64,000 bases of DNA from Brachypterus glaber (Eukaryota; Arthropoda; Insecta; Coleoptera; Kateretidae). The stretch covers positions 54,047,365-54,111,364 of the forward strand of contig OY294047.1 in assembly GCA_958510825.1 (NCBI GenBank), in the 5' to 3' direction. The notes beneath the pieces are model-generated. The model worked only from the letters and a program-made list of their open reading frames with translations, searched no databases and was not told the origin of the DNA. The position numbers were made by a program, and so were the translations under genes. Shown one piece after another: positions 3,834 to 63,208 of this stretch. Positions within the stretch are counted from its first letter, which is position 1; each line of letters starts with the position of its first letter.

Positions 3834-3950
3834 TGTCAGAAGTGGGATTCGAACCCACGCCCTCAGAGAGGACCAGAACGCTCATTCGCATCTACTTGGT
3901 AGACAAGGAAACCTTGAGTCTGGCGCCTTAGACCGCTCGGCCATCCTGAC
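3834..3950 (-). tRNA. tRNA-Leu(CAA) with anticodon-loop intron
   Basis: Minus-strand cloverleaf. The acceptor stem is GTCAGGA with TTCTGAC and discriminator A. The A box reads TGGCCGAGCGG and the B box GGTTCGAATCC. A long variable arm makes it a class II tRNA, as leucine tRNAs are. The anticodon stem CCAGA/TCTGG holds CAA at 3914-3916. A 34-nt intron (3879-3912, boundaries good to about one base) sits after position 37, the canonical site and a known feature of eukaryotic tRNA-Leu(CAA). All stems look intact and a T6 terminator follows, so it is probably functional. It reads TTG codons. Its neighbours are TE sequence on both sides. Confidence 0.95.
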
Positions 3951-26003: not shown

Positions 26004-26987
26004 TACAGGGTGTCCCAGAACTCGCGTCCATCCTTGAAGGTATAAATACTACATCAAAAAATATAAAAAAAGTTTATATAAACGTAGACCCGCAAATCGG
26101 TCCTAAGGGAGTTCTGGCCCATTAAAGGGGATACCAAAAATAGGGTTTTTATTTAATATCTCTGGAGCCCTTTGAGCTAGAAGGACGAGATTTTGCATGT
26201 GACTTAGTATTATTAAGAAAAATTATTTTAAGTTATTTTAGTCTTCAAAGTTTACTGGAGGCACGCCTAGACGTACGAAATTTCTGTGGCTTACCACATT
26301 TTTGCTCAAAACTTTTTCGCATTCTTTTTTAAAATTCTTTGAGTCAAAATACATGAAAAAGATACTCACAATATTTCCGAGAAAAATCAATTTAAAGGAA
26401 TGCCCCTGAAGAGTGTTACTGTTTAAAGAGTCTCACTTAATATTTATTTTTGGGCCAGGGTGTAAAAAACTTCTTTATCCAATACATACAGATAATGAGA
26501 CAATTACCAGCTTTATTTTAAATAGATAAACTCAATAATAACCCCCGCGTGGCTTTTACTTTATTGAGTGGATAGTTATTTATTTTACCCACTCAACTGT
26601 CACTTGTCAAATTATTTTCTTGTAAATGTCATTAAAATTTTTAATAAAATTATGAATTTCTAAGCTATTGGATAAAACCTTGTATGGCACTCATGGGTAA
26701 ACCGATATTGCCCTCTCGAAAATTAACCTGCTTGGCTGACGCCTCGCAGGTTAATTTTCTCATGGGCAATATCTTACTTTACCCACTAGTACCATAAATA
26801 ACTATTTTCTTAGTTTTTAATGTGGATTCGCCCTGCAGTGTTAAATTATATTATTAGCGCTTTTTTTGGGCCCTATTAAAGAGACCTACATTCAATAGTG
26901 CGTAAATCCATTAGGCCATATGTTTATATGACTTCTTTTTTATATTTATTGATATATTTTGTGTCGCGAGTTCTGGGACACCCTGTA
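26004..26987. mobile_element. Tc1/mariner-type non-autonomous element with TA duplication
   Basis: Perfect 23-bp TIRs beginning TACAGGGTGTCCCAGAACTC are flanked by TA (26002-26003 and 26988-26989). The interior has no ORF and is interrupted by family B copy 4; without it the element would be about 650 bp. The TIR start is shared with the remnant at 5729. 26988-27601 holds nothing further that I can support. Confidence 0.8.
26474..26806 (+). mobile_element. Family B element, copy 4, nested
   Basis: Near-complete copy with intact terminal hairpin. It lies inside the TACAGGGTGTCCC element, so it inserted later than that element. Confidence 0.9.
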
Positions 26988-27609: not shown

Positions 27610-27863
27610 CAACGAACTAATAACTCTTCTCTCTAGAATAGACATTTCATTCGTAAAAACTGACAAAAACGTCGGCAACATAAACATTCGTCTGTCTTAC
27701 TCGCACATCTTTGTTCTAACAGAGACAACAATACCAGTTACTGGTAATTGTTATTGTTCAGACCTGAATATACCTACTATTTGTTTACAAACAAACCGAG
27801 ATGCTGGCGATACTTTATTTTAACGGTATGCGTGTTCTAGAAAGAAGAGTTGTTAGTTCGTTG
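27610..27863. mobile_element. hAT-type MITE, copy 1, 8-bp TSD
   Basis: The 254-bp element has ends CAACGAACTAATAACTCTTC and GAAGAGTTGTTAGTTCGTTG. It is flanked by CTCAAAAT at 27602-27609 and 27864-27871. A copy of identical length with a different 8-bp duplication is at 46923-47176. 27872-28194 is AT-rich with no feature I can support. Confidence 0.85.
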
Positions 27864-28201
27864 CTCAAAATACATAGGAATTGACTAGTCGAGTCCGTCG
27901 GAGATCTTTTTTGTGCGGCTGTGCAACAAGCAGTTTTATTAATAAACATTTATTTACCATATCGGGCCAAAAAGACAAGGTAATCTACAATGTTATTTTG
28001 TAGGATATATTTGTTATTATTAATTTGAGAAATTCTATTCAAAAAAATAATTTAAAATAATAATTAGCTGCTGATTTTAATTAAATTCTTCAAGGATTAT
28101 GTTTAAAAAATTTAAAGCCTTGCTAATAACTACTACATTGACGTTTGTATATTAAGTAGTAGGTAATACACACAAAAAAGTAAACATCAAAATATTAACG
28201 C

Positions 28202-28280
28202 AGTCGTCCCTCCGAAGTGACTGATCGATTTCGTGCTTTTTAGCACTCTTCAGAGCCACATATCGGTAGTAGGGACAACT
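28202..28280 (-). ncRNA. Type I hammerhead ribozyme motif, inverted copy
   Basis: The 79-nt sequence is identical on the minus strand to 28465-28543, with the core at 28217-28259. All catalytic-core bases are retained: CTGAAGA, stem II GTGCT/AGCAC, GAAA, and C as the cleavage-site nucleotide. Confidence 0.8.
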
Positions 28281-28464
28281 ACGAAAACCAAACCCTTTCC
28301 ATATATCTCTATATAGAGTTTAAAAATCCTTCCTTCCTTTTTTGGACTTTTTTGGTTTATCCAGTCTCTGCTTTTAGCAGTAGATGTCGCTAGCTGTTTT
28401 TGCTTTTCCTTGTAACGATTTTTAAACTCTATATAGAGATATATGGAAAGGGTTTGGTTTTCGT

Positions 28465-28543
28465 AGTTGTCCCTACTACCGATATGTGGCTCTGAAGAGT
28501 GCTAAAAAGCACGAAATCGATCAGTCACTTCGGAGGGACGACT
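28465..28543 (+). ncRNA. Type I hammerhead ribozyme motif
   Basis: Core 28486-28528. CTGAAGA (28492-28498) is the C3-A9 box. Stem II is GTGCT-AAAA-AGCAC, 5 bp with a tetraloop. GAA (28513-28515) is G12-A14. ATCGAT (28516-28521) is self-complementary, giving a 2-bp stem III alone or 6 bp in a dimer. C28522 is position 17 and cleavage is predicted after it. Stem I pairs GTGGCT with AGTCAC (6 bp, one G-U) next to the core. It continues past a TAT/T internal loop with CCGA/TCGG, then past a 4-nt bulge with a 10-bp helix (28465-28474 with 28534-28543). Activity is not demonstrated. Confidence 0.85.
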
Positions 28544-28900
28544 GCGTTAATCAAACAAAAGTCGTTTTAAGGAATAGTAAAATGTTTTATATAGATCTTT
28601 TAAATTTGTAAATATCAAACAATTTAATTTAGTTTATTAATTCAGATACCACTGTAAAAGGTGACCTCTTAGCGTTTAGGATTCAATTGGCGGCAATGTC
28701 CACCGTGGCATTGATTAATCTGCCCCCTATCGACAGCGTGCAATAGGTTCTTGAAACCAATAACTGCTTCCTTTTTTGGACTGTCGATAGGTTTATCCAG
28801 TCTCTGCTTTTAGCAGTAGATGTCGCTAGCTGTTTTTGCTTTTCCTTGTAACGATTTTTAAACTCTATATAGAGATATATGGAAAGGGTTAGGTTTTCGT

Positions 28901-28979
28901 AGTTGTCCCTACTACCGATATGTGGCTCTGAAGAGTGCTAAAAAGCACGAAATCGATCAGTCACTTCGGAGGGACGACT
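28901..28979 (+). ncRNA. Type I hammerhead ribozyme motif, direct-repeat copy
   Basis: Identical to 28465-28543 and exactly 436 bp downstream; core 28922-28964, predicted cleavage after C28958. Confidence 0.85.
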
Positions 28980-29272
28980 GCGTTAATCAAACAAAAGTCG
29001 TTTTAAGGAATAGTAAAATGTTTTATATAGATCTTTTAAATTTGTAAATATCAAACAATTTAATTTAGTTTATCAAAATATTAGTCTCAAGTCTGATTGC
29101 GGCAACGTTTTAGTCCTATCAACCTATCAATAACTCATCCTTTTATTTCCCTAACATTATTACACTCTACATCCTTTATGAATTGTGAGCGGTATTCCAT
29201 TCTAGGGCTGTCTACCTTTCTTCTAACTCTCAGGTCGCTCCCCAAAATATTTTTTCTCTTAGAATATAAAGG

Positions 29273-29487
29273 TGAAGTTTGCAACGTTTTTTTGCATCGA
29301 AAATTCAAATAGTATATTAAAGCACTTACTCCATAACACGTTTTTAGCGCACTAGTACTTTAGAAAACTCGCCGCAGGCGGCTTGTTTTCTAAACTTGTA
29401 CTCGTGCGTTAAAAACGTATGTTATGAAACTAGTACTTTAATATACTATTTGAATTTTCGTTGCAAGAAAAACGTTGCAAACTTCAG
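29273..29487. mobile_element. Family F hairpin module, solo
   Basis: Outer arms GAAGTTTGCAACGTTTTTTT and AAAAACGTTGCAAACTTCAG; inner arms ACACGTTTTTAGCGCACTAG and its complement, and GAAAACTCGCCGCAGGCGGC. The same hairpin ends the longer F copies at 30645-31175, 31757-32285 and 33999-34510. Confidence 0.75.
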
Positions 29488-29618
29488 CTTCATTTTAGAA
29501 TGTGGACCACCATTTGATCGCTTCTTCTAACTATCTCCTTCCACAAAATACTATTTTCCCAATACTCTCTAATACTCTCTTGTTTGTAACTCTATCTGAC
29601 TATTTTAAATAAACAAGC

Positions 29619-29842
29619 TTGGGGTAAGGCGCTGTCTATATATTACGTTACGCTAATTGTATCAAAATTCATACGTTATTAAAGGCTGTAGAGATGTAAT
29701 ATTTTGGCTAACCCCCCCCCCCCCATTTTGGGGGTAGCCAAAACAGGAAATCTCTACAGCCTTTAATAACGCGAGAAACGGGGTATGAAGTGTATGAATT
29801 TTAGTACAATTTTCGTTATGTAATATATGGACAGGCCCCAAT
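29619..29842. mobile_element. Family D palindromic MITE, copy 2
   Basis: Ends TTGGGGTAAGGCGCTGTC and GACAGGCCCCAA, then TATATTACG and AATTCATAC blocks and a C-run loop with GGTAGCCAAAACAGGAAATC. It resembles copy 1 inside but has the GGGCTGTCC-type end of copy 5. Open frames over this element and 29843-30146 have no recognisable protein content. Confidence 0.75.
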
Positions 29843-30146: not shown

Positions 30147-30413
30147 TTTATCCAATATATACAGATAATAAGACAATTACCAGCTTTATTTTAAATAGAT
30201 AAACTCAATAATAACCCCCGCGTGGCTTTTACTTTATTGAGTGGATAATTATTCATTTTACCCACTCAATTTTCACTTGTCAAATTATTTTCTTGTAAAT
30301 GACATTAAAATTTTTAATAAAAATATGAATTCCTAAGCTATTTATTGGATAAAACCTTGTATGGCACTCATGGGTAAACCAATATTGCCCTCACTAGTAC
30401 CATAAATAACAAT
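30147..30413 (+). mobile_element. Family B element, copy 5 (hairpin deleted)
   Basis: Begins TTTATCCAATATATACAGAT. It lacks the second half of the terminal hairpin, jumping from AATATTGCCCTC to ACTAGTACCATAAATAAC. Confidence 0.85.
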
Positions 30414-30644: not shown

Positions 30645-31175
30645 TTTTTTTCTATTTTGCGACTCTTATAAGCTCATAATCACACGCATTTTGCGTGTTC
30701 TTATAGGACCATAAGAGATCTATACTTTTTTTTCTTTTGGATTGGCAACAGACAAAAGTCTATCTCTTGACGTTTGCCGTGCAATTGTGAACGTCGCTTT
30801 AAAGTTTAATTTTCTACAAAATTTTGTGTTTAGGTTTGGTTTACGGTGTTAAAATTGTGGCTTGGTTACTTGCAGTGGAAAAGAGAAGAAATGACTATAA
30901 AATATATCAAAATAATATTCGTTCTTAGAATTTTAAACATGGCGAAAACTGCAATGGCAATTCGAAACAAAAATCCCTAAATCAGTCATCAATTTAAATG
31001 TAAGTTTTTTTTAAATTTTAGAGCAAAATAGAAAAAATTGTATAAAGCACTCGTTTCATTACACGTTTTTAGCGCACTAGTACTTTAGAAAACACACCGC
31101 AAGCGGCTCGTTTTCTAAACTTGTACTCGTGCGCTAAAAACGTATGTTATGAAACTAGTACTTTAATATACTATT
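30645..31175 (+). mobile_element. Family F element, copy 1
   Basis: Starts TCTATTTTGCGACTCTTATA with a CTTATAAG/ACACGCATTTTGCGTGT hairpin. The non-coding body includes TCGCTTTAAAGT, TTCTACAAAATTTTGTGTTT and AATCCCTAAATCAGTCATCA. It ends in the AGCGCACTAGTACTTTAGAA hairpin and ACTTTAATATACTATT. No ORF. Confidence 0.8.
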
Positions 31176-46340: not shown

Positions 46341-46605
46341 GATGGGAGGCATAGCGTAGTGGCTAGCGCGTATGTATAGCAAGTCTACTATCGTGAGTTC
46401 GATTCTCACTGGCGCCGATTTACCTTTTTCAGTTAATTAATAATTGAAATTTGGCGAAGGCGCTAAGTGAAACGGACACTCCCTAGAAACTGGTTCGAAA
46501 GTCAGTATAAGCCGGTGGTTCCCTCTACTACTAGCCCACACAAGTCCTGGACTTAGAGGATGCTTGATTAAGTAGAATAGTACGAGGTTAAACAAAAAAA
46601 AATAT
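46341..46605 (+). mobile_element. tRNA-derived SINE
   Basis: The tRNA-like head has an A-box-like TAGCGTAGTGG and a perfect T-arm: GTGAG, loop TTCGATT, CTCAC, with B-box-like AGTTCGATTCT. The acceptor ends (GGGAGGC and TGGCGCC) do not pair and no sound anticodon arm forms, so it is not a working tRNA. A ~180-bp unrelated body follows (GGACACTCCCTAGAAACTGG; AGCCGGTGGTTCCC), then an A-rich tail near 46594. This is the standard SINE layout. The tRNA of origin is not determined, and I see no clear target-site duplication. Confidence 0.65.
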
Positions 46606-46922
46606 ATATTTGTTTTTTTAAGTAAAAAAACTATTTTTTTTAAATTTTTATAACACAGCTATGTGTACGGTAGGTCTAACGTTTCCTAGGGAACGTATGA
46701 CCTACTCCTTAATTTGACAGTCATTGATAATACCCCGTTTTGTGTGAATATTTTGTACTTGTTTTTGTGTTTAATAAGCTGTTTTATGTATTCTTTAATA
46801 ATTTTGCATATCATGCACATTTTTTGTTGCACTGTGATAAAATCCAAATATAATATTTTTAGGGAATTTTCTTTTTGGGTTGGTATTGAAGCCCTAAATT
46901 TATGTTGCCTACGTATTGGACT

Positions 46923-47176
46923 CAACGAACTAATAACTCTTCTCTCTAGAATAGGCATATCATTTGTAAAAACTGACAAAAACGTAGCCAACATATACAT
47001 TTTTCTGTCTTACTCGCACAGCTTTGTTCTAACAGAGACAACAATAACAGTTACTGGTAATTGTTATTGTTCAGGCCTGAATATACCTAATATTTGTTTA
47101 CAAACAAACCGAGATGTTGGCGATACTTTATATTAACGGTATGCGTATTCTAGAGAGAAGAGTTGTTAGTTCGTTG
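46923..47176. mobile_element. hAT-type MITE, copy 2, 8-bp TSD
   Basis: 254 bp with ends CAACGAACTAATAACTCTTC and its complement, flanked by ATTGGACT at 46915-46922 and 47177-47184. Open frames crossing it run from unique sequence into the MITE on both strands and are not genes. 47185-47662 has no feature I can support. Confidence 0.85.
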
Positions 47177-54766: not shown

Positions 54767-55038
54767 TAAGGTCCACCCTAATGTATCATAAATAAAATAA
54801 AATAAATCTATTGTTTAGTTACTTTTTGCATAACATCCTAATTTATTATATTGCTAATAACAATAATAAATAGGATTTTACTATGCTGGCCTTACTACAC
54901 CACTTCAACGTCATATTTTCAACAAAAAAATTGTATAATTAATTATTTGGTTACATTCCAAGGCCACCTAAATCTTTGTATTTTTTGTTTGTCAAATTCG
55001 CGGTATCTTACAATGCCAAGCGCGTGTAGGAGTACACA

Positions 55039-55239
55039 GNNNNNNNNNNNNNNNNNNNNNNNNNNNNNNNNNNNNNNNNNNNNNNNNNNNNNNNNNNNNN
55101 NNNNNNNNNNNNNNNNNNNNNNNNNNNNNNNNNNNNNNNNNNNNNNNNNNNNNNNNNNNNNNNNNNNNNNNNNNNNNNNNNNNNNNNNNNNNNNNNNNNN
55201 NNNNNNNNNNNNNNNNNNNNNNNNNNNNNNNNNNNNNNN
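55039..55239. other. Assembly gap (N)
   Basis: About 200 N. The open frame that appears to span it is an artefact of reading through N. Confidence 0.99.
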
Positions 55240-55337
55240 AATGAATTTTTCTCGAAAACGGTTAATCCTACAGTATTACAACAAGAGTAGCTTTTTTATG
55301 TATTTTGACCTGAGAAATCATATTTTAAAAATAAAAT

Positions 55338-55662
55338 TGCAAAAAAGTTACACAGAAAAAAGTTTGGGACAAAAAACTGATAAGCCCCCCCGTTTCGCAC
55401 ACCCCTGGTTGAAATAAGTACATGAAAATAACACATAAAAACGGGCCTTGGTAGGATTAGTTGATGTGCAAAACCTCGTTGATATATCTCAAAGGGTTCC
55501 TGAGTTATTAAATAAAAACCGATTTTTTTAGCCACTTTTAAAGGGGCGTAGCTCCCATATGACGCATTTTTAGACATATGTTTATAGGAACTTTTTGTCA
55601 TATTTTATGATGTAGAATCATCTGTTAAAATTTCCTACGCTATTTCAAATACACCGTGTATG
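55338..55662. mobile_element. Family C element, copy 3
   Basis: From TGCAAAAAAGTTACACAG through CGTTTCGCACACCCCTGG, CAAAACCTCGTTGATATATC, GGTTCCTGAGTTATTAAAT and GACATATGTTTATAGGAAC to TTTCAAATACACCGTGTATG. It probably extends left into the gap. Confidence 0.75.
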
Positions 55663-59471: not shown

Positions 59472-62400
59472 CTAGCTGTCGCTTTCTGATGATAATTGTT
59501 TATCTGCGTGTGTGTTTTTCTTATGTGAGTATAAACCAGATCTCGAAGAAAACTTAATTTTACAAATATGACAGGAATATGGCTTAACTCCACTGTGACT
59601 TTTAACGTGGGTATATAACGATGAATTAGCAGTAAACGATTTTTGGCAAATATGACACGAATATGGCTTAGTTCCACTGTGAGTTTTAACGTGAGTCTGC
59701 CACCCTGAATAAACAGTAAACGATTTTTGGCAAATGTGACAAGAATATGGCTTTTCACCGGTGTGTATTCTTTTGTGCAATGTTAAGCTCCATTTCAAAG
59801 TAAAAGTTTTCGAACACACATCACACGAATAGGCTTTAATGTTGGAATGTATAACTTGGTGTCTAGTTAAAGTACATTTGCGACCAAATGATTTTTGACA
59901 AACTTCGCAAGTAAACGGTTTTTGATTAGAGTGAGTTTTAAGGTGCTTATTAAGTCTCGATTTTGTAAAAAATGCTTTTTCACAAACTTGACAATCATTA
60001 CATTTGTCTAATTTCATGTGTTTTGTTTTAATGTGTTCGGTTAGACTATATTTTTCTTTATATGATTTTTCACATGCACTACACGTGAATGGTTTTTCGC
60101 CTGTATGGCTCATATTGTGTACAATTAACTTATGTTTTTTATAAAAAGCTTTGGGGCAATGAGAACAGGTAAATGGCTTGTGGTCTATATGGGTTTTTAA
60201 GTGTTCTCTAAGGTAAGGTTTAAACGAAAATGATCTGTCGCAAATTTTACAAGTAAAGGGTTTTTTAGCTGTATGCACCTGAATGTGTCGGATCAAATCT
60301 TGTTTAGAAGCAAACCCCTTTGAGCATGTAGAACACAAATACGGTTTTTCAGCATAATGGAACGCCATATGCTTTTTTAAACTTATTTTATAAATAAATT
60401 TTTTTAGACAAACATTGCAACTGTAAAGTGTCATACCCAAATGGGCCATACTGTGTTTTTTTAAATTAATTTTACTCGTATAAGTTTTTGGACAAACAGA
60501 ACATGAATACAGTTTGACGCCAGTATGCATGCATGCAGTATGCGCATTTAAAAGTTGTTCGGAGCTAAAACTTTCCTTACAAATATGGCAATTATGTGAA
60601 TTTTCACCTGTGTGTATTAGGTTGTGTTCTAACAAATTCTTCTCGAGTAAAAATGATTTTGGGCAAACCGAACATCGAAATACCTGATCGTGTGCTCGAA
60701 CGTGATATTCTAGGGACAGCTTACTAGTGAACGATGTTTGACATATATCGCACGTGAATATTTCTTTTTCCGCGTGATTTTCTATATGTTTATTCAATTG
60801 ATATTTGTGGGGGAAAGATCTATTGCAAATTTTACACGTGGGCATTTTTCCCATGTGTTTTTTTCGGTGCTCATAAAGCAAGCTTCGACTACTCAATATT
60901 TGCTCACAAAAGTTACAAGGATATGGACGCCTTGTATCTGTATGTGTTTTTTTAATGTGTTCTGTAAGATACCATTTTATTTTAAACGATTTTTCACATT
61001 CACTACATGTATATGGTTTTTTACTTGAATGTGTTTCAATGTGCTTCCTTAAAAGATACTTTTGTGTAAATGATTTTTGACACTCATGACATTTGTACGG
61101 TCTTACGCCCGTGTGTATTCTTAGGTGCAAGTTTAACTTTTTTTTACTAACAAAGGCTTTTTGACAAACAAAGCACGAAGTTTTAGTGTGCAAAATTTTG
61201 TGTGTGTCCAAATCACTTTTAGAGGGAAATAATTTTTCGCGATTGTGGATAGCATTTTGCTTTTTGAGATATGTTCTTCTAGAAAATGATCTTTTGCAAA
61301 TATCACAGGCGCATTTGTGAACCTGTATGTGCGACGCCAGAGATGTTGTTGTGAAAAACAATTTTTCACAAACAGTGCAAGAAAATTGTTTTTTGACTTG
61401 TTCAATTTTAAAACTTCTATCGAGAAAAACGTAAAGTTCCTTTTCAAATTTTGTGCATTGAACAACTCGGTTTGGTGAAATTTTTGTTTTTTTAAGATAT
61501 GTTCTTCTTGAAAATGATCTTTTGGAAATATCACAGGCGCATTTGTGAACCTGTATGTGCGACGCCAGAGATGTTGTTGTGAAAAACAATTTTTCACAAA
61601 CAGTGCAAGAAAATTGTTTTTTGACTTGTTCAATTTTAAAACTTTTATCGAGAAAAACGTAAAGTTCCTTTTCAAATTTTGTGCATTGAACAACTCGGTT
61701 TGGTGAAATTTTTGTTTTTTTAAGATATGTTCTTCTTGAAAATGATCTTTTGCAAATATCACAGGCGCATTTGTGAACCTGTATGTGCGACGCTAGAGAT
61801 GTTGCTGTGAAAAACAATTTTTCACAAACAGTGCAAGAAAATTGTTTTTTGACTTGTTCAATTTTAAAACTTCTATCGAGAAAAACGTAAAGTTCCTTTT
61901 CAAATTTTGTGCATTGAACAACTCGGTTTGGTGAAATTTTTGTTTTTTTAAGATATGTTCTTCTTGAAAATGATCTTTTGGAAATATCACAGGCGCATTT
62001 GTGAACCTGTATGTGCGACGCCAGAGATGTTGTTGTGAAAAACAATTTTTCACAAACAGTGCAAGAAAATTGTTTTTTGACTTGTTCAATTTTAAAACTT
62101 TTATCGAGAAAAACGTAAAGTTCCTTTTCAAATTTTGTGCATTGAACAACTCGGTTTGGTGAAATTTTTGTTTTTTTAAGATATGTTCTTCTTGAAAATG
62201 ATCTTTTGGAAATATCACAGGCGCATTTGTGAACCTGTATGTGCGACGCCAGAGATGTTGTTGTGAAAAACAATTTTTCACAAACAGTGCAAGAAAATTG
62301 TTTTTTGACTTGTTCAATTTTAAAACTTTTATCGAGAAAAACGTAAAGTTCCTTTTCAAATTTTGTGCATTGAACAACTCGGTTTGGTGAAATTTTTGTT

Positions 62401-63152
62401 TTTTTAAGATATGTTCTTCTTGAAAATGATCTTTTGGAAATATCACAGGCGCATTTGTGAACCTGTATGTGCGACGCGAGAGATGTTGCTGTGAAAAACA
62501 ATTTTTCACAAACAGTGCAAGAAAACTGGTTTTTGACTTGTTCAATTTTGAAACTTCTATCGAGAAAAACGTAAAGTTCCTTTTCAAATGTTGTGCGTTG
62601 AACAACTCGGTTTGGTGGAGTTTTAGGTTTTTTAATTTGTGAATTTTTCTCAGTCCTATTTTCTAAAATATCCAATAAGGGTTTACTCTCATTATCTGAA
62701 CACAGTTCATTTTCTTCTATCTGAATTATACTGCTTTTAATTTCGTCTTCAGAATCTACTTTATCATCTTCTATTTTATCTCGACCACTTTCTTTTTCTA
62801 AATTAATTGTTTTGGCAACTATTTTATCGGTAATTTCCTCAATTTCAACTATTATACTTCTATTTTCATTTTCTAGATCCGATTCAGCTTTTATTTCTTC
62901 ATTTGGCCAGCCTGTTTTTTCATTTTTTAAATAAAACTCATCATCAATGACCCTAACTTCTTTAATAATATTGTCTTCAGTGAAATCCATGTTTCCTGCT
63001 TCCCTTTTGATTTCAGTATTTTTCCAGGGAGTGGAACTTTCTTCATCTGATTTTAATTCACCAGAACTACCATCAGCTTCTTGGATTTGGAATTCTTCTT
63101 CGTCCTCTTCTTCTGGTTTACCAGATCTTTTAACAGGTTCTTTGTTTGCCAT
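59472..63152 (-). CDS. C2H2 zinc-finger protein with 76-aa tandem units
   Basis: Single open frame of 1226 aa starting MANKEPVKRSG. Residues 1-173 are acidic, rich in Glu, Asp and Ser, with no ZAD, BTB or KRAB domain visible. Residues ~174-631 are six tandem 76-aa units, each with one intact C2H2 finger (Cys-x2-Cys-x12-His-x3-His; the first at ~210). A second, truncated finger start follows whose second Cys is Ser in four units and Cys in two (units 4 and 6). Residues ~650-1215 hold about 20 further C2H2 fingers, a few joined by TGEKP-type linkers; the tail ends HADKQLSSESDS. A nuclear, sequence-specific DNA-binding role is expected for the family; target and partners are unknown. ATG at 63152 is the first in frame and follows an A-rich stretch. 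No coding intron is needed. Confidence 0.93.
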   Translation of the reverse strand: MANKEPVKRSGKPEEEDEEEFQIQEADGSSGELKSDEESSTPWKNTEIKREAGNMDFTEDNIIKEVRVIDDEFYLKNEKTGWPNEEIKAESDLENENRSIIVEIEEITDKIVAKTINLEKESGRDKIEDDKVDSEDEIKSSIIQIEENELCSDNESKPLLDILENRTEKNSQIKKPKTPPNRVVQRTTFEKELYVFLDRSFKIEQVKNQFSCTVCEKLFFTATSLASHIQVHKCACDISKRSFSRRTYLKKTKISPNRVVQCTKFEKELYVFLDKSFKIEQVKKQFSCTVCEKLFFTTTSLASHIQVHKCACDISKRSFSRRTYLKKTKISPNRVVQCTKFEKELYVFLDKSFKIEQVKKQFSCTVCEKLFFTTTSLASHIQVHKCACDISKRSFSRRTYLKKTKISPNRVVQCTKFEKELYVFLDRSFKIEQVKKQFSCTVCEKLFFTATSLASHIQVHKCACDICKRSFSRRTYLKKTKISPNRVVQCTKFEKELYVFLDKSFKIEQVKKQFSCTVCEKLFFTTTSLASHIQVHKCACDISKRSFSRRTYLKKTKISPNRVVQCTKFEKELYVFLDRSFKIEQVKKQFSCTVCEKLFFTTTSLASHIQVHKCACDICKRSFSRRTYLKKQNAIHNREKLFPSKSDLDTHKILHTKTSCFVCQKAFVSKKKLNLHLRIHTGVRPYKCHECQKSFTQKYLLRKHIETHSSKKPYTCSECEKSFKIKWYLTEHIKKTHTDTRRPYPCNFCEQILSSRSLLYEHRKKHMGKMPTCKICNRSFPHKYQLNKHIENHAEKEIFTCDICQTSFTSKLSLEYHVRAHDQVFRCSVCPKSFLLEKNLLEHNLIHTGENSHNCHICKESFSSEQLLNAHTACMHTGVKLYSCSVCPKTYTSKINLKKHSMAHLGMTLYSCNVCLKKFIYKISLKKHMAFHYAEKPYLCSTCSKGFASKQDLIRHIQVHTAKKPFTCKICDRSFSFKPYLREHLKTHIDHKPFTCSHCPKAFYKKHKLIVHNMSHTGEKPFTCSACEKSYKEKYSLTEHIKTKHMKLDKCNDCQVCEKAFFTKSRLNKHLKTHSNQKPFTCEVCQKSFGRKCTLTRHQVIHSNIKAYSCDVCSKTFTLKWSLTLHKRIHTGEKPYSCHICQKSFTVYSGWQTHVKTHSGTKPYSCHICQKSFTANSSLYTHVKSHSGVKPYSCHICKIKFSSRSGLYSHKKNTHADKQLSSESDS
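61262..62630 (-). repeat. Six-copy 228-bp coding tandem array
   Basis: The marker CACAGGCGCATTTGTGAACC recurs at 61304, 61532, 61760, 61988, 62216 and 62444, exactly 228 bp apart each time, so the reading frame is kept. Copies differ at only a few sites: Cys/Ser (TGC/TCC), Lys/Arg before SFKIEQ, and Ala/Thr in FFTATS. Units 2, 3 and 5 share the same variant set. This looks like recent unequal exchange. Confidence 0.95.
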
Positions 63153-63166
63153 TTTGAAAAAAAAAT

Positions 63167-63208
63167 CTGAAATTCAAAATTTCAAGTTAGGGGCGTTTTT
63201 ACCTTTAC
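63167..63208 (-). other. Possible 42-nt intron in the 5' UTR of the zinc-finger gene
   Basis: On the minus strand, ACGTG|GTAAAGG provides a donor, CCCTAACTTG a strong branch-point-like CTAAC, and GAATTTCAG|ATTTT an acceptor 15 nt upstream of the ATG. At 42 nt it is near the lower size limit for insect introns. Confidence 0.35.

Follow-up and report, generated by a model that had tools for sequence, protein, structure and literature searches.

What kind of element carries the hammerhead ribozyme motif found in this beetle DNA, and which enzyme placed it there? Type I hammerheads occur in animal non-LTR retrozymes, which have been described as non-coding, multi-copy tandem units of 150-450 bp with low GC and TSDs longer than 4 bp (Cervera and de la Pena 2020, PMC7229834). 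For the carriers of such animal elements, a Penelope-type reverse transcriptase (RT) is suspected: Penelope-like elements (PLEs) have been named a strong candidate carrier of retrozymes (PMC7229834), and the carrier is not indicated by any conserved motif according to PMC7761336. The LTR retrozymes of plants are likewise non-coding, hammerhead-bearing, non-autonomous retroelements, but they have LTRs, PBS/PPT, 4-bp TSDs and a type III hammerhead, unlike the type I motif here (PMC7761336). In this study we analysed a 64,000-nt stretch, hereafter the window, together with the genome from which it comes. We propose, with a probability of about three in four, that the window ribozyme is part of one insertion of a young non-autonomous retrozyme that was mobilised by a Penelope-type enzyme via double target-primed reverse transcription.

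Results

The window holds three copies of a type I hammerhead motif

The motif lies on the plus strand at 28465..28543, with a predicted cut at 28522/28523. Direct reading gives the core CTGAAGA (28492-28498), a stem II of GTGCT/AGCAC (28499-28503/28508-28512) with an AAAA loop, GAAA (28513-28516), the palindrome ATCGAT (28516-28521) and C17 at 28522, directly 3' of which the cut is predicted. Stem I pairs GTGGCT with AGTCAC (28486-28491/28523-28528), continues in a second helix, CCGA/TCGG (28479-28482/28530-28533), and ends beyond an ACTA bulge in a 10-bp helix, AGTTGTCCCT/AGGGACGACT (28465-28474/28534-28543), which is 3 bp longer in the computed fold. The preliminary description had named these elements, and they match the sequence base for base; its statement that all conserved core positions are present was borne out by direct reading and by a layout scan. 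The motif thus has the type I core CUGANGA...GAA, the A15.1-U16.1 pair, H17 and stems I and II, and is open at stem I. Its stem III is a single A-U pair capped by the palindromic loop UCGA, A[UCGA]U, and two molecules could share a 6-bp AUCGAU stem III helix. The axolotl motif HHR_Amex1 resembles it in having a stem III of one pair and a palindromic tetraloop, and axolotl motifs with this kind of stem III show weak cleavage as monomers and far stronger cleavage as dimers (PMC7229834).

When both strands of the 64-kb window were scanned for the full layout, exactly three sites were found, with cores at 28492(+), 28928(+) and 28253(-). Since 200 Markov-1 windows contained a mean of only 0.02 such sites per window, the motif is not a product of chance. 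The second copy (28901..28979, plus strand) is identical to the first and has its predicted cut at 28958/28959. The third lies on the minus strand at 28202..28280, with a predicted cut between 28223 and 28222; it mirrors 28465-28543 through a 138-nt inverted repeat that surrounds the motif (28194-28331 / 28414-28551), and both a cmscan match at 28201-28271 and the alignment agree with this placement. A 106-nt stretch around the motif folds at -45.9 kcal/mol (z -7.57), in a minimum-energy structure that pairs the core UGA with UCG and so is not the active fold.

The covariance check suggested in the preliminary description gave a divided answer. Hammerhead_HH9 (RF02275) was the best covariance match, with core and stems aligned, and it was found at all three sites with a significant E value of 9.4e-5 (cmscan, 1-kb search; three overlapping hits within that clan scored lower and are omitted). 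Its 28.4 bits, however, lie below the Rfam gathering score of 52, and cmscan at the gathering threshold reported no hammerhead in the window. Unlike HH9, the window motif is without the stem III loop. Viral contigs contained no exact match to the 37-nt ribozyme core.

The motif belongs to a young dispersed 436-nt repeat

A direct repeat with 436-nt spacing surrounds the motif (28354-28640 / 28790-29076), and the window copy carries two same-strand hammerheads with this 436-nt period. The expected monomer RNA of 436 nt spans 28523..28958 on the plus strand, between the predicted cuts 28522/28523 and 28958/28959. Unit positions are counted from the predicted cut, with 28523 as nt 1, so that the monomer comprises nt 1-436. 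The window copy has no ORF of 100 aa and hence no RT plus GIY-YIG ORF.

We searched the window's own genome (648,179,424 bases in 842 contigs) with two parts of the unit. The query 28440-28560 gave 41 matches, comprising 40 full-length ones at 98-100% identity and a partial one at 91% (60 candidates, 40 scored), and the query 28560-28789 gave 43, of which 40 extended over 229-230 nt at 99-100% (1333 first-look candidates, 40 scored). The 436-nt unit is a young dispersed non-coding repeat. The core pattern is kept in 92 of 99 near-complete hammerheads, and at least two near-complete hammerheads lie on one strand in 21 of the 41 insertions described below. The unit is non-coding and within the ~150-450 bp range, has a type I hammerhead and occurs in tandem; its copies are multiple, dispersed and flanked by TSDs longer than 4 bp. 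Since unit length, hammerhead type, tandem copies, dispersal and TSD all fit, the family is of the kind called non-LTR retrozymes, and it shares low GC with those of animals (PMC7229834). The preliminary description had likened the motif to the type I hammerheads with tiny stem III of PLEs and retrozymes. Such a motif, its stem III self-complementary, is present, and it lies in a dispersed repeat. Beyond what was described before, the analysis adds the two further hammerhead copies, their inverted arrangement, the element itself and its two fixed ends.

Most insertions are mirror images with two fixed, unlike ends

We classed 43 distinct insertions after merging same-place loci by hand, and dropped two that run off their stretch (L049, L064), leaving 41. 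They comprise all 26 places of the 28440-28560 search and 17 of the 28560-28789 search, with 10 further places left out; drawn from top-scoring matches, they form a biased, young sample. Two outward-pointing arms were present in 34 of the 41 complete insertions, mostly within one TSD, while the remaining seven have one arm or arms all in one direction. A flanking duplication of at least 11 nt accompanied 34 of the 41 insertions, compared with 30 of 1640 mismatched flank pairs. TSD length was 12-14 nt in 30 insertions and 9-10 nt in three, and four had none. The flanks are 77% AT, against 69% for the window.

The outer ends of the two arms follow a simple rule. Counted from the predicted ribozyme cut, one arm ends at a site A, around nt 109-120, and the other at a site B, around nt 67-77 once the TSD is removed (raw blast ends 67-91, and 104 in L031). 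In the window these start sites correspond on the plus strand to 28631..28642 for A (unit nt 109-120, AGTTTATTAATT) and 28589..28599 for B (unit nt 67-77, in GTTTTATATAGATCTT), each being the outer end of one arm elsewhere in the genome. One A and one B end were found in 32 of the 34 two-arm insertions, with no A/A and no B/B case, where 31 were labelled by script and L031 by hand, under class limits fixed after the data had been seen. If the two ends were equally likely and independent, the chance of this pattern would be about 2^-32. Among the seven single-direction insertions, six have an A end and one (L041) a B end. Folding gave no sign of structured RNA at sites A and B, since the retrozyme folds no better than its shuffles, and the same holds for three PLE families.

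Both exceptions to the rule have an A end. One is L029, with ends 137/A, whose left flank resembles by eye a repeat at 27610-27863 of the window; that repeat has 36-nt inverted arms, and its letters seem, again by eye, to recur in the frame 46690-47136. The other is the window copy itself, with ends 29/A. Its left arm (28194..28331, minus strand) is outward-pointing and contains unit nt 328-436 followed by nt 1-29, where nt 29 is the atypical, non-canonical outer end. Its right arm (28333..29076, plus strand) runs from unit nt 245 to 436, makes a full 436-nt lap and continues from nt 1 to about nt 114-118, an A-type end at 29072-29076. The TSD ATCAAAATATTA is present on the left at 28186..28197, with its final 4 nt common with the arm end, and on the right at 29072..29083.

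Several other repeats lie around this copy. Direct repeats of ~220 nt at 26500-26715 and 30173-30392 (96-98% identity, 3.67 kb apart) bracket the retrozyme region and are possibly copies of another transposable element. Foldbacks at 29263-29496, 29632-29834 and 29674-29771, with arms of 29-52 nt, adjoin the insertion and are perhaps MITE-like, and 29300-29450 recurs at 31025-31175 with 88% identity.

The inner joints vary. Arms in the two-arm class measure 63-1958 nt; they are separated by no more than 45 nt in the 33 simple insertions and by 262 nt in L038. In raw counts, taken without a chance control, 25 of the 33 simple two-arm insertions have an overlap of at least 1 nt at the inner joint, 1-4 nt long in 18 of these 25. 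The inner arm ends lie more than 20 nt apart on the unit in 26 of the 33. In addition, L069 has four alternating arms (-+-+), outer ends B and A and a 13-nt duplication, as if two rounds of joining had taken place.

Taken as a whole, an insertion has inverted terminal copies in one TSD and a tail on one side only. This mirror-image anatomy is the new element here. The animal retrozymes in PMC7229834 are tandem, whereas 34 of our 41 insertions have mirror-image arms with two fixed ends, and the words 'inverted' and 'head-to-head' do not occur in the main text of that paper. A literature search, judged on titles and abstract openings and excluding subscription papers, returned no report of mirror-image retrozyme insertions.

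Paired arms mostly derive from one RNA lineage

We compared the arms at seven diagnostic sites; site 366 contributes a large number of the variant cells, and the cells depend on one another. Agreement was seen in 40 of 58 variant cells for opposite arms within an insertion and in 36 of 50 for same-strand laps, whereas different insertions agreed in 1228 of 7621. Because the agreement between arms exceeds the level between insertions, both arms of an insertion are as a rule copied from one RNA lineage. Arms of one insertion nevertheless differ at diagnostic sites in L004, L008, L033 and others. Same-strand laps differ by a base in five of 15 informative insertions (L027, L039, L044, L056, L058) and by a gap in L052 and L062. 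A circle of a single sequence as the sole template is contradicted by these five of 15, and the lap differences indicate that the template is not always such a circle: it was sometimes a multimer of unlike units, or there was a template switch or later mutation.

PLEs with similar end distances reside in the same genome

We surveyed the genome for PLEs with the GIY-YIG profile. Pfam GIY-YIG gave 31 matches over the cut-off among 150 scored of 419 first-look candidates, and 14 loci were read. One of them (L072, G000:C556:3500-9700, minus strand) contains a PLE in a ~3-kb (3000 bp) tandem unit, with RVT_1 (E 6.2e-10) and GIY-YIG (E 4.4e-5) in a single ORF and a hammerhead-like stretch with the core TTGAAGA. 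Such motifs, with core, stem II, GAAA and a palindrome ACGT or ACTAGT, lie downstream of the PLE endonuclease in four families: P1 (L072, L075; core TTGANGA), P2 (L078, L079), P3 (L077, L080, L082 and, by eye, L084; degraded in L081) and P4 (L074, by eye, with a weak stem II). Stem II is preceded in them by an additional base, which only a looser scan allows. The strict hammerhead scan found none in 12 PLE loci (L072-L083), and Rfam at E up to 1 reported no hammerhead in any of the 11 loci searched out of the 14. True hammerheads in the PLEs of this genome are thus unsupported by the strict scan and Rfam, and we call the motifs hammerhead-like.

Taking the point at which copies diverge from one another as their end, the PLEs end at nt 51/86 (P1), 94-95 (P2) and 65-67/98 (P3) after the inferred cut, as judged by eye from few copies, and the two ends of the retrozyme fall near this range. 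No significant similarity was detected between the 3' region of the retrozyme and the 3' regions of the four families, and the 14 of 419 candidate loci read yielded no autonomous partner. A TTTTATATA-like motif common to retrozyme site B and family P3 was set aside, as it may be an AT-rich coincidence. L085, taken up as a PLE, looks by eye like a host gene instead, presumably of the SLX1 type. A long foldback in L081 (169-303), adjoining the PLE 3' end, gave weak Rfam miRNA-precursor matches below the cut-offs and is probably a simple inverted repeat.

Other features of the window

On the minus strand, 59472-63173 is a 1233-codon open frame with many C2H2-like zinc-finger motifs (by eye). It contains a 228-bp repeat in six copies with 97% matches (61261-62635), and is perhaps a recently expanded zinc-finger gene. 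Two tRNA matches exceed the Rfam threshold, at 46345-46417 (+) and 3834-3950 (-), the latter with an intron-like insert of ~45 nt in the anticodon-arm region. The window includes 200 N, and a stop-to-stop frame at ~54842-55417 is broken by masked bases.

Discussion

Since ends A and B are fixed and never alike, the two cDNAs appear to be initiated at fixed positions within the RNA, one position for each target strand. Double target-primed reverse transcription is the simplest account, because it explains two fixed unlike ends, on opposite strands, within one duplication.

Comparable anatomy has been published for EN-containing PLEs. Penelope of Adineta vaga has inverted pLTRs, a TSD of 8-10 bp and an optional 31-bp tail on one inverted pLTR (PMC3846280). 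For the Anolis Poseidon element PAc, purified protein cut and extended both target strands, and RT started at two adjacent internal sites, with the tail being the stretch between them (PMC11167929). Frangieh et al. further reported in vitro that the start site did not differ between strands and that ribozyme cleavage was not needed, and left the final PLE integration steps for later validation (PMC11167929). Subtracting the 26 given there, the PAc start at ORF position 111-118 lies 85-92 nt past the hammerhead cut. The retrozyme shares with these elements the inverted terminal copies in one TSD and the one-sided tail (PMC3846280, PMC11167929), as well as AT-rich targets and an apparent RT start at an internal RNA position beyond the hammerhead cut. 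It differs in that the window copy is without an RT/GIY-YIG ORF, in its TSD of 12-14 nt in 30 of 41 insertions versus 8-10 bp in Adineta (PMC3846280), and in its tail of ~46 nt versus 30-40 (PMC3846280, PMC11167929). The strict rule that each insertion combines an A end with a B end is unlike the strand-independent start seen in vitro for PAc, and is not stated for EN-containing PLEs in the excerpts of PMC3846280 and PMC11167929. The anatomy of inverted arms with a one-sided 'tail' matches the published PLE signature. Because of this match, and because PLEs with similar end distances share the genome, we conclude that a Penelope-type enzyme probably mobilises the retrozyme by double target-primed reverse transcription.

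LINE-1 twin priming also gives inverted arms, TSDs and microhomology joints, and these features of our insertions would fit a LINE-type enzyme that inserts the element and forms inverted arms by twin priming at a chance internal place on the RNA. However, twin priming leaves one outer end variable, whereas both are fixed here, ~46 nt apart, in 32 of 34 insertions; moreover, the flanks inspected by eye have no poly(A) or shared 3' tail, and we regard a LINE-type origin as unlikely. Alternatively, a single cDNA could fold back and copy itself, and the hairpin would insert as a head-to-head repeat. Self-priming on an antisense template was proposed for the head-to-head Penelope copies of Adineta (PMC3846280), and in seven of our 33 simple insertions (L002, L006, L031, L033, L054, L056, L057) the inner arm ends are at most 20 nt apart, two of them with overlaps of 14 and 25 nt. 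Yet in the other 26 they are farther apart, the two arms finish at different start sites, and arms differ at diagnostic sites in several insertions, such as L004, L008 and L033, all of which makes fold-back of one cDNA quite improbable.

A short duplication flanking inverted arms would also be left by a foldback DNA transposon or MITE moving by cut-and-paste. The termini here are unlike sequences, sites A and B, and the arms of 63-1958 nt, which can hold several 436-nt laps, meet at variable inner joints; already disfavoured on these grounds, such a transposon is scarcely credible. The unit could instead be a pseudo-LTR, with these same 436 nt forming part of an autonomous PLE as yet unseen, rather than an independent retrozyme. 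PLE pLTRs with such hammerheads have been reported (PMC7761336), and only 14 of the 419 first-look GIY-YIG loci were read; against this, gaps no longer than 45 nt in the 33 simple insertions and of 262 nt in L038 leave no room for a PLE ORF, and multi-lap arms show that the 436-nt unit closes on itself. We consider a pseudo-LTR very doubtful.

Returning to double target-primed reverse transcription, we infer an order of events from the observed ribozyme motif, repeat family, arm geometry, A/B rule, duplications and resident PLEs. Transcripts with two same-strand hammerheads would be cut into 436-nt RNAs, probably by paired ribozymes that share the AUCGAU stem III, and these RNAs may be ligated into circles. 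A protein, presumably of the Penelope type, would then cut the two strands of an AT-rich target at points ~12-14 bp from each other. Each DNA 3' end would prime RT, at site A on one strand and at site B on the other. Reverse transcription would proceed toward the RNA 5' end beyond the position of the ribozyme cut, and in some insertions would go round more than one unit. Joining of the two cDNA 3' ends, frequently with a short overlap, and fill-in would follow. The product would be two outward arms within one TSD.

A broader reading, which we offer tentatively and rate at somewhat less than even odds, is that animal retrozymes are SINE-like parasites of PLEs, that a paired enzyme usually starts at A on the first strand and at B on the other, and that PLEs owe both their one-sided tail and their inverted pLTR to this one cause. 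The single-arm insertions would then represent failed B starts, and A would be the first-strand site, as the A end in six of the seven suggests. The ends of insertions in this family supply a pointer to the carrier enzyme. In addition, the A and B ends bear on how PLE integration is completed, and double priming predicts products that can be tested. If the SINE-like reading is true, retrozyme insertions record how PLE integration works.
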